Part shown: positions 31,814-34,695 of the stretch, in pieces
Layout of the letters: every line of letters begins with the position of its first letter
Position numbering within the stretch: the first letter of the stretch is position 1
Assembly: GCA_002841885.1 (NCBI GenBank)
Contig: PHBE01000001.1
Span: 186,001 to 250,000, forward strand
DNA: 64,000 bases
Origin: Deltaproteobacteria bacterium HGW-Deltaproteobacteria-18
GTDB lineage: Bacteria; Desulfobacterota; Desulfovibrionia; Desulfovibrionales; Desulfomicrobiaceae
Direction: 5' to 3'
Translations under genes and position numbers: made by a program
Notes under the pieces: generated by a model
Seen by the model: the letters and a program-made list of their open reading frames with translations, nothing else
Told to the model about the DNA's origin: nothing
Database searches by the model: none

Positions 31814-31854
31814 TCGTCACAACACACCATGATTACTGAATAAATAAAATCAAA

Positions 31855-31885
31855 ATGGCCCTGCCGAAAAGATCGGTCGGGCCAT
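31855..31885 (-). terminator. Intrinsic terminator of trpB
   Basis: ATGGCCC (31855-31861) pairs with GGGCCAT (31879-31885), with further CCGA/TCGG pairing inside. On the minus strand a TTTTGATTTTATTT run follows. It lies about 60 bases past the trpB stop. Confidence 0.75.
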
Positions 31886-31943
31886 TTATCTAGCAATGCT
31901 TTAATGAAACTAGCTGGTTACACTAAAAAGATCGAACGGCTTT

Positions 31944-33152
31944 TTACAGTGTCGGAGGCACGACCTCGCCGCTGTTGACCATGCGTTCGATCTGGTCCAC
32001 GTCCTTGTCGCCGCGCCCGGACAGGTTGACGATAATGATCGTTTCCGGGGACAGCGCGGGCGCGATGCGCAGGGCGTGCGCCAGGGCGTGGGAGGACTCG
32101 AGGGCCGGGATGATGCCTTCGGTGCGCGAGAGCAGGAAGAAGGCGTCCAGGGCCTCGTGATCGCTTGCGTGGACGTACTCGGCCCGGCCCAGATCCTTGA
32201 GATGGGCGTGCTCGGGGCCGACGCTCGGATAATCGAGGCCCGCCGAGATGGAATAGACTTCCGCGGGCTCCCCGGCCGGATCCTTGAGCATGTAGGAATT
32301 GAACCCGTGCATGACGCCCGGTTCGCCAAGACAGAGGGTGGCCGCGTGCTCGCCGTATCCAAGTCCCCTGCCGGCAGGCTCCACTCCGACGAGCCTGACT
32401 TCCTCGTGGGGAATGAACTCGGAAAAAAGGCCCATGGCGTTGGAACCGCCACCCACGCAGGCGATGCAGTAATCGGGCAGGCGGCCTTCGGCCTCCAGAA
32501 TCTGCGCCTTGGCCTCCCGGCCGACGACGGACTGGAATTCCCGCACCATGACCGGATACGGGTGCGGCCCCACGGCGGAACCGAGCAGGTAGAATGTGTT
32601 CTGCGCGTCCTGAACCCAGGCCATAAGCGCCTCGTCCACGGCCTCCTTCAGGGTCTTCTGGCCGCTCTCGGCGGGAACGACCTTGGCTCCCATCATCTGC
32701 ATGCGGAAAACATTGAGCTTCTGCCGCTCCACATCCACTGCGCCCATATAGATGGTGCACTCCATGCCCATGAGCGCCGCCGTTGCCGCAGTGGCCACAC
32801 CGTGCTGGCCCGCACCGGTCTCGGCGATGATCTTCTTCTTGCCCATGCGCTTTGCGAGCAGGATCTGGCCAATGGTGTTGTTGACCTTGTGCGCGCCCAG
32901 GTGGTTCAGATCCTCGCGCTTGAGGTAGATTTTGGCTCCCCCGCAACGTTTGGTCAGGTTGGCGCAAAAATAGAGCGGATTGGGGCGGCCGGTAAACTGC
33001 TTCTGGTAATACTCGTATTCCTTGATGAAATCCGGATCGTTGCGATAGCGTTCAAAAGCCTCCGCCAGTTCATTGAGAATGTCCTTGATCGGTTCGGGAA
33101 CGAACTGTCCGCCGTAGGCGCCAAAAAAACCGTCTGCAGTGGGCATGGTCAT
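31944..33152 (-). CDS. trpB: Tryptophan synthase beta subunit
   Basis: A 402-residue PLP enzyme that joins indole and serine to make tryptophan. It has the PLP lysine motif ([13 protein letters not shown]), [10 protein letters not shown], the phosphate-cup glycines ([10 protein letters not shown]) and the C-terminal LSGRGDKD. The residue before GAHK is Leu where Thr is usual. It is encoded alone, with no trpA or other trp genes alongside, and is of the TrpB1 type. An AAGGAG site precedes the first ATG. Its 170-base leader contains a tandem-Trp leader peptide and an intrinsic terminator, indicating attenuation control. Confidence 0.94.
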
Positions 33153-33176: not shown

Positions 33177-33211
33177 AAAAAAAACCGCGGTCAGTCTGCA
33201 CTGCCGCGGTT
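33177..33211 (-). promoter_or_regulatory. trpB attenuator: intrinsic terminator in the leader (segments 3:4)
   Basis: On the minus strand AACCGCGG (33211-33204), a 13-base loop and CCGCGGTT (33190-33183) form an 8-bp GC-rich stem followed directly by eight T's, 25-30 bases before the trpB ATG. Segment 2 (TGCCGTGG, 33263-33256) can instead pair with CCGCGGCA (33209-33202) by 8 pairs including one G-U, which would prevent the terminator. Segment 2 itself pairs with segment 1 as CGGCATG-AAATA-CATGCCG (33277-33259). This is the classic 1:2, 2:3, 3:4 logic. Confidence 0.85.
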
Positions 33212-33238
33212 GGTATTTTGCTTATCCTTTGACGGATT

Positions 33239-33316
33239 TCAGGCCAAGACGCATCCCACGGCATGTATTTCATGCCGCCACCAAAGAAGGGAAACGCTGC
33301 TGGTCGTGTTATTCAT
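33239..33316 (-). CDS. trpL: trp leader peptide with tandem Trp codons
   Basis: A 25-codon ORF reading MNNTTSSVSLLWWRHEIHAVG plus CVLA. Tandem TGG TGG codons are at 33283-33278, immediately before the 5' arm of hairpin 1:2. Ribosome stalling there under Trp shortage would cover segment 1 and free segment 2 to pair with segment 3. The stop lies between segments 2 and 3, so a non-stalled ribosome covers segment 2 and the terminator forms. No Shine-Dalgarno site is visible, so translation may be leaderless; the start is therefore less certain than the rest. Confidence 0.75.
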   Translation of the reverse strand: MNNTTSSVSLLWWRHEIHAVGCVLA

Positions 33317-33347
33317 GGAGAAAATAACTGCCCACGCACTGAGCGTT

Positions 33348-33353
33348 TGTCAA
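33348..33353 (-). promoter_or_regulatory. Candidate -35 box of the trpB leader promoter
   Basis: A perfect TTGACA on the minus strand. Possible -10 sequences (AGTTAT or GTTATT) lie 18-19 bases downstream, which would start transcription close to the trpL ATG. The -10 match is poor, so the promoter is tentative. Confidence 0.45.
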
Positions 33354-33406
33354 GCCATAATCGATCGGATACACAAATGCGTCACGATCACCAAAGGAGT
33401 ATCCGC

Positions 33407-33754
33407 ATGATCACCAAAAATGAAGACGCCGTCTGGCACGAGCTCATCCCGGGCATCAGTGTCAGCACCCTGGTCCATGGAGACAAGACCCTCATGGCCC
33501 GTTTCGAACTCAAGGAGCACTCGTATCTCCCCATCCATTCGCACATGCACGAACAGACCGGATACCTGGTCTCAGGGGACATGACCATGACCATCGACGG
33601 AGAGGAGCACCGCTTCGGCCCCGGCGACAGCTGGTGCATCGCCCCCGGAGTCGAGCACGGCGCGGTCATTCACGAAACCTGTATGGCCATAGAGGTCTTT
33701 TCCCCCGTACGCGAGGACTACAAGCCCTACCTGCCGCAGGGAAAAGCATATTGA
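33407..33754 (+). CDS. Cupin-domain protein
   Basis: A 115-residue single-domain cupin with metal-binding motifs (IHSHMHEQTGYLVSG, then GDSWCIAPGVEHGAVI) and a C-terminal FSPVREDYKPYL tail like that of KdgF and similar small cupins. Substrate unknown. An AAAGGAG site precedes the ATG. It is divergent from trpB and translationally coupled (TGATG) to the pseudouridine synthase gene. Confidence 0.87.
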   Translation: MITKNEDAVWHELIPGISVSTLVHGDKTLMARFELKEHSYLPIHSHMHEQTGYLVSGDMTMTIDGEEHRFGPGDSWCIAPGVEHGAVIHETCMAIEVFSPVREDYKPYLPQGKAY

Positions 33755-34652: not shown

Positions 34653-34695
34653 AAAGACCTCACTTGAAAAAACCATGTTTTCAAGTGAGGTCTTT
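34653..34695 (+). terminator. Long intrinsic terminator after the pseudouridine synthase gene
   Basis: AAAGACCTCACTTGAAAA (34653-34670) pairs perfectly with 34678-34695 around a 7-base loop, an 18-bp stem whose 3' side ends in TCTTTGTATTT. It separates the cupin/RluA operon from the repeat array. Confidence 0.85.

Follow-up and report, generated by a model that had tools for sequence, protein, structure and literature searches.

A predicted ribosome-mediated tryptophan attenuator with a leaderless-looking leader peptide before a solo trpB gene in a Desulfomicrobium-like bacterium and its relatives

The enteric trp attenuator (E. coli trpL, RF00513) combines tandem Trp codons in a leader peptide, four RNA segments able to form the mutually exclusive pairings 1:2, 2:3 and 3:4, and an intrinsic terminator placed before the structural gene. 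A translated leader may also be the end of an enzyme gene, as in the E. coli rph-pyrE attenuator, where the end of the upstream gene serves as leader for the intercistronic terminator, UTP being sensed through the distance between polymerase and ribosome. In Sinorhizobium meliloti, the attenuator transcript of the leaderless trpL (rnTrpL/peTrpL) has the leader ORF's ATG at its very 5' end and acts in trans (PMC7298713). Comparative genomics has predicted trp attenuators in actinobacteria, including one before the C. diphtheriae trpB2A operon (PMC1262725). The uORFC-8-2 motif, found before cysS in Rhodobacterales and consisting of a short uORF that carries its regulatory codons in tandem at roughly codons 14-15, has been read comparatively as a ribosome-mediated attenuator (PMC8632094). 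Our literature search, outside whose scope lay the key attenuation papers on proteobacteria, gave no account of the attenuator described below in Desulfovibrio or other deltaproteobacteria.

The locus lies on the minus strand of the window, i.e., the whole stretch of 64,000 nt that was analysed (Table 1). A sequence-only reading had described a 25-codon leader with tandem TGG codons, a hairpin 1:2, a competing pairing 2:3 and a terminator (3:4) ending in eight T's, and each of these elements was indeed found in its place. The leader folded at -50 kcal/mol, compared with -38.6 +/- 3.7 kcal/mol for dinucleotide shuffles (z = -3.1, with 1 of 200 as good). The trpB start is situated 25 nt downstream of the terminator, and the gene has its own Shine-Dalgarno site between the attenuator and its start codon. 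The Rfam search at E <= 5 returned chance matches only, with no RF00513 (Trp_leader), T-box or other relevant match; the leader is not a member of RF00513 as modelled, and the RNA element is missing from Rfam. As trp genes of Firmicutes use T-box or TRAP-type leaders, another Trp-sensing RNA of this sort could be envisaged, but this blank in the neighborhood of the gene, together with conserved translated Trp codons, which are characteristic of ribosome-mediated attenuation, makes it a highly improbable explanation. The sub-threshold snoRNA and microRNA matches of the same search likely arose from a long inverted repeat on the plus strand of the window (34653-34695, AAAGACCTCACTTGAAAA...TTTTCAAGTGAGGTCTTT), which is probably a terminator.

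Table 1. Positions of the leader elements and neighboring genes in the window, and of the candidate at the tyrA-trpE junction.
Feature	Position	Strand	Remarks
-35-like TTGACA	33348..33353	-	37 nt upstream of leader ATG
-10-like region, CAGTTAT	33324..33330	-	weak, poor consensus match; read from sequence; scores barely above shuffles
Leader peptide ORF, MNNTTSSVSLLWWRHEIHAVGCVLA-stop	33239..33316	-	25 codons; ATG at 33316
Tandem Trp codons 12-13 (TGGTGG), putative sensor	33278..33283	-	invariant in 21-sequence alignment
Segment 1, CGGCATG	33271..33277	-	directly after Trp codons; pairs with CATGCCG 33265-33259
Segment 2, CATGCCGTGG	33256..33265	-	5' part is partner of segment 1, TGCCGTGG of segment 3
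2:3 pairing, TGCCGTGG with CCGCGGCA	33263-33256 with 33209-33202	-
Segment 3, AACCGCGGCAGT	33200..33211	-	terminator 5' arm and partner of segment 2
Segment 4, ACTGACCGCGGTT	33183..33195	-	terminator 3' arm
Eight-T run	33177..33184	-	end of intrinsic terminator
Solo trpB, tryptophan synthase beta chain	31944..33152	-	402 aa; ATG 33152; Shine-Dalgarno AAGGAG
Probable terminator after trpB, AAATGGCCC...GGGCCATTT then T-rich	31853..31887	-	read from sequence
Small cupin-domain protein gene	33404-33754	+	divergent, starting just upstream of trpB promoter region
tyrA-trpE junction	L003:12271-12430 (G000:C3 190270-190429)	-	candidate Trp attenuator

The source genome is Desulfomicrobium-like, orthologues of the solo TrpB with 94-97% protein identity being present in records named Desulfomicrobium or Desulfovibrionales. 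This protein, which scored 601.2 bits with NCBIfam TIGR00263 (cutoff 392) and 175 bits with the TrpB-related TIGR01415 (cutoff 519), is an ordinary TrpB1-type beta chain. On the 3' side of the gene, the probable terminator, which the consensus scan did not flag, is followed by a sensor-kinase-like gene. The description of a lone trpB in the sequence-only reading holds for its position, where it stands alone, but not for the genome, which also contains a complete aro/trp cluster comprising, as assigned from translations, a pheA-type gene, aroA, tyrA, trpE, trpG, trpD, trpC, trpF, trpB and trpA. Because this trp operon is complete and has a trpB of its own, whose product is 55% identical to the solo TrpB, the solo gene is a paralogue and not the sole tryptophan synthase beta gene. 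TrpA-independent TrpB proteins of the LBCA/plTrpB Res6 type bear the residues E36, E42, T53, S187, A279 and M280 in LBCA numbering (PMC11917138). Mapped on the alignment to 5EY5_B, the solo TrpB has D, E, N, S, F and N at these positions, i.e., two of the six, and was rejected as a Res6-type stand-alone enzyme. With four of the six residues missing, stand-alone activity therefore gains no support from this test, and other routes to such activity may exist. The solo TrpB would perhaps be an auxiliary enzyme, acting for instance, under Trp shortage, in indole salvage (Trp from indole and serine).

Conservation of the leader was evaluated with a covariance model built from 21 leaders (MAFFT alignment), which gave one strong match in the source genome (E 3.6e-19) and matches in 109 of the 348 genomes of the order. 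Almost without exception, the matches with E < 1e-4 that were fetched lay directly upstream of a solo trpB; the weakest matches include unrelated genes. Once duplicates were removed and TTGAC was required 33-41 nt upstream of the ATG, 54 distinct leaders were retained, all with two or three tandem Trp codons that start 30-42 nt after the leader ATG. Unselected regions upstream of solo trpB in relatives agree with this set, with few exceptions (L047, L198, L216), in their short WW/WWW ORFs and in the TTGAC spacing. Conservation in 54 distinct orthologous leaders rules out chance as the origin of the leader elements. The leader peptides are otherwise widely different (MNNTTSSVSLLWWRHEIHAVGCVLA, MQKTNNSSILSLRNWWWRW, MNVSYSNFTLYSWWWRS, MVIAHTHRSWLDWWWLC), so it is the mechanism that has been kept and not the peptide. 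The position of the leader stop codon also varies, being 14 nt past segment 2 in Desulfomicrobium, whereas other genera (Halodesulfovibrio-like group) have it in the loop of 1:2. This leader is missing from nearly all solo trpB genes of genus g12, and from similar trpB genes in termite-gut Burkholderiales.

Within these leaders, segment 1 either overlaps the last Trp codon or starts directly behind it in 21 of 21 aligned sequences. A consensus structure derived automatically from the MAFFT alignment put stem 1:2 out of register between lineages and was dropped, and pairs were read instead in a register anchored on the GGC that follows the Trp codons. Read in this way, stem 1:2 is kept despite sequence change: the pair at index 10 is A-U in 16 leaders, G-C in 19, U-A in 7 and C-G in 8, and substitutions on both sides likewise occur at the sixth pair (index 12), these covarying pairs being taken from predicted folds of sequences that are related to one another. 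Arms swapped between the main lineages formed 2-5 of 6 pairs, versus 6 of 6 for native arms. Segments 3 and 4 hardly vary (CCGCGGCAG and CTGACCGCGG). In one genus, however, segment 2 changed from CGCC to CGTC (CGTCGCGG), segment 3 from GGCAG to GACAG (CCGCGACAG) and segment 4 from CTGACC to CTGATC (CTGATCGCGG), so that both 2:3 and 3:4 are preserved; an attenuator would require just such a joint change of all three segments. Median predicted energies were -13.6 kcal/mol for 1:2, -16.5 kcal/mol for 2:3 and -18.9 kcal/mol for 3:4. In a single-locus shuffle test, 2:3 energies were modestly better than controls, with 28 of the 54 leaders at or below 0.05; this test is weak alone because the segments are G+C-rich, and the case therefore rests on conservation and covariation. 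The three mutually exclusive pairings thus appear to be present, with compensatory changes in 1:2. The comparison of trpB leaders in relatives, which the sequence-only reading had proposed as a check, showed that the Trp codons and the alternative pairing are kept, and neither of the two outcomes that it had named as refuting appears in the comparative data; its interpretation as trp attenuation is supported by elements conserved in 54 leaders and by their compensatory changes. Comparative evidence of this kind argues strongly for ribosome-mediated attenuation.

We consider it very probable that the leader acts as a transcription attenuator of the ribosome-mediated, tryptophan-responsive type, with leaderless initiation of its peptide. 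What the sequences show are the elements themselves, their conservation, the compensation within 1:2 and the concerted change of segments 2, 3 and 4; the transcription start, ribosome stalling, Trp dependence and auxiliary role of the solo TrpB are inferred. RNA polymerase would start at or beside the leader AUG, and a ribosome would load on this 5' AUG without a Shine-Dalgarno site. When charged tRNA-Trp is scarce, the ribosome would stall at codons 12-13 and, given the known size of its footprint, cover segment 1; with segment 1 masked, 2:3 would form, no terminator would arise and RNA polymerase would continue into trpB. When Trp is plentiful, the ribosome would pass segment 1 and reach the stop codon, which would prevent 2:3 and allow the 3:4 hairpin to form, and transcription would end at the T run. 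A strong terminator 25 nt before trpB would also suit a constitutively terminated small RNA with no Trp-dependent read-through, perhaps trans-acting like rnTrpL, the S. meliloti attenuator RNA that begins with the trpL ATG and works in trans (PMC7298713). A plain small RNA would nevertheless have no need of in-frame Trp codons and exclusive pairings, on which selection has evidently acted, and we regard this explanation as very unlikely. The leader RNA may have an additional role in trans.

The position of the transcription start was approached through the promoter-like elements. Among the 54 leaders, a set selected for TTGAC at 33-41 nt, 52 have this motif 35-39 nt upstream of the ATG. Under standard promoter geometry, this spacing places the predicted start at the A of the ATG or a few bases before it; for the TTGACA of the source genome, it falls at the leader ATG or within about 2 nt. 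The base at position -1 is C in 44 leaders and T in 10, hence a pyrimidine in 54 of 54, and all four bases occur at this position before trpB. A Shine-Dalgarno site of at least 4 bases is absent in 49 of the 54 leaders, that of the source genome having none upstream of its ATG, and is present before trpB in 42 of 54. The consensus promoter scan of the locus gave no sigma-70 site and no clear -10, and because of this blank and of the weak -10-like region no argument on promoter strength was drawn from it. The weakness of this element, and a start deduced from sequence, would also fit the same Trp attenuator with a short normal 5' UTR, transcription starting further upstream and the leader peptide having no recognisable Shine-Dalgarno site. 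Leadered versions do exist, since the trpE leader of genus g12 has TTGACA about 59 nt before its ATG and a Shine-Dalgarno-like AAAGGAA. Such a UTR is nonetheless unlikely before trpB, where the observed spacing would leave it 0-4 nt under standard sigma-70 geometry and where the -1 base is always a pyrimidine. The leaderless leader peptide at which the sequence-only reading had hinted, with a start at or next to the AUG, is thus supported by the TTGAC spacing, the pyrimidine at -1 and the missing Shine-Dalgarno site.

A second candidate was found at the tyrA-trpE junction, the second-best covariance-model match in the source genome (E 0.048). TyrA ends there in ...ALWWWRKQHDPGGPAS-stop (WWWRKQHDPGGPAS-stop), a terminator stands before trpE, and the last tyrA codons, GGACCGGCT, are complementary to the terminator 5' arm, AGCCGGATCC, with which they could pair. 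A C-terminal WW or WWW was present in 50 of 50 TyrA proteins read from the order and in 0 of the 25 that came from other families in the phylum, and most tyrA-trpE junctions of the order carry a terminator. In some lineages (L148, L166, L171, L174, L225), the tail codons pair with the terminator clearly better than shuffled sequences do, but this does not hold for the other Desulfomicrobium. A purely regulatory meaning of the WWW was rejected, as it is also found where trpE was not found adjoining or where trpE follows too closely for a terminator to fit (L230, L232, L235, L237, L218, L224); its retention without an adjoining trpE makes a role in the protein possible. The 3' end of tyrA may itself sense Trp, the C-terminal tail of the full-length TyrA then serving as the leader peptide. 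A wider proposal is that both trpB copies of the order are under Trp attenuation, the leader of the trp operon being the C-terminal tail of TyrA (WWW...GGP-stop), whose last codons would pair with the trpE terminator, and that dedicated leaderless leaders are one form of an order-wide network reaching salvage genes (solo trpB, arylacetate-CoA ligase). We put it forward tentatively, as somewhat more apt to fail than to hold.

WW/WWW leaders elsewhere are usually coupled to a terminator; the names of the genes that they precede are readings of translations, save that trpE within the order was identified by a tblastn match. Genus g12 (L205, L208, L211, L214) has a dedicated trpE leader, ...QGWWWRNQLRGGDVRAK-stop, with a normal UTR and the Shine-Dalgarno-like site, and its resemblance to TyrA tails suggests a possible evolutionary link between tail and leader peptide. 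In genus g35 (L207, L195), a phenylacetate-CoA-ligase-like gene is preceded by a leaderless-looking Trp leader (MNPRTNPTFEGLWWRLP-stop in L207) and by a terminator of the same type. A gene of this type in genus g3 (L213, G017) is preceded by a Phe/Tyr-rich leader, MNQTFTTFSLFYFYFFTFAHKGESVVSA-stop, and a CCGCGG-type terminator, possibly a Phe attenuator of an arylacetate salvage route. A short ORF, MKVIVASISYTWNLNWWWRFW..., stands before a gene for a TRAP-type substrate-binding protein in L206 (G069), which could possibly be a Trp-controlled transporter. In other families of the phylum (L238, L239, L240, L242, L244), WWW leaders and terminators were seen before genes read as trpD, trpS, trpE, TrpB2-like and iorA (indolepyruvate oxidoreductase-like).

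The kind of system described here is already known, and what is new is a leaderless-looking, order-wide family placed before a solo trpB. These results would extend the known reach of ribosome-mediated Trp attenuation to a large number of sulfate reducers, with an RNA element outside Rfam, and they supply wide comparative evidence for leader peptides whose start codon opens the transcript. They also lead to the prediction that a shortage of Trp-tRNA is the specific signal that turns on the extra trpB. The possible attenuator with the end of tyrA as sensor, to which this analysis led, is its most unusual lead and stands as a candidate.

Compared with the E. coli trpL system, the leader has the same tandem Trp codons in a leader peptide, segments 1-4, exclusive pairings and intrinsic terminator before the structural gene. 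It departs from the enterobacterial style named in the sequence-only reading by its apparent lack of a 5' UTR or Shine-Dalgarno site and by its stop codon 14 nt beyond segment 2 in Desulfomicrobium, the genera with a stop in the 1:2 loop being closer to E. coli; the gene controlled would, moreover, be a single trpB paralogue. The predicted start at the leader ATG, deduced here from sequence, is shared with S. meliloti trpL, which differs in controlling trpE(G) rather than a solo trpB, in belonging to another phylum and in its unrelated leader sequence. The actinobacterial case, also predicted by comparative genomics, concerns an operon whose first gene is a second trpB, but in another lineage and with trpA following trpB, which is alone here. 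The uORFC-8-2 motif differs by its Cys codons and its cysS gene, in place of Trp codons and trpB. Finally, the tyrA-trpE candidate resembles rph-pyrE in using the end of an upstream enzyme gene as leader, with the difference that the tyrA tail would sense Trp-tRNA through its Trp codons.
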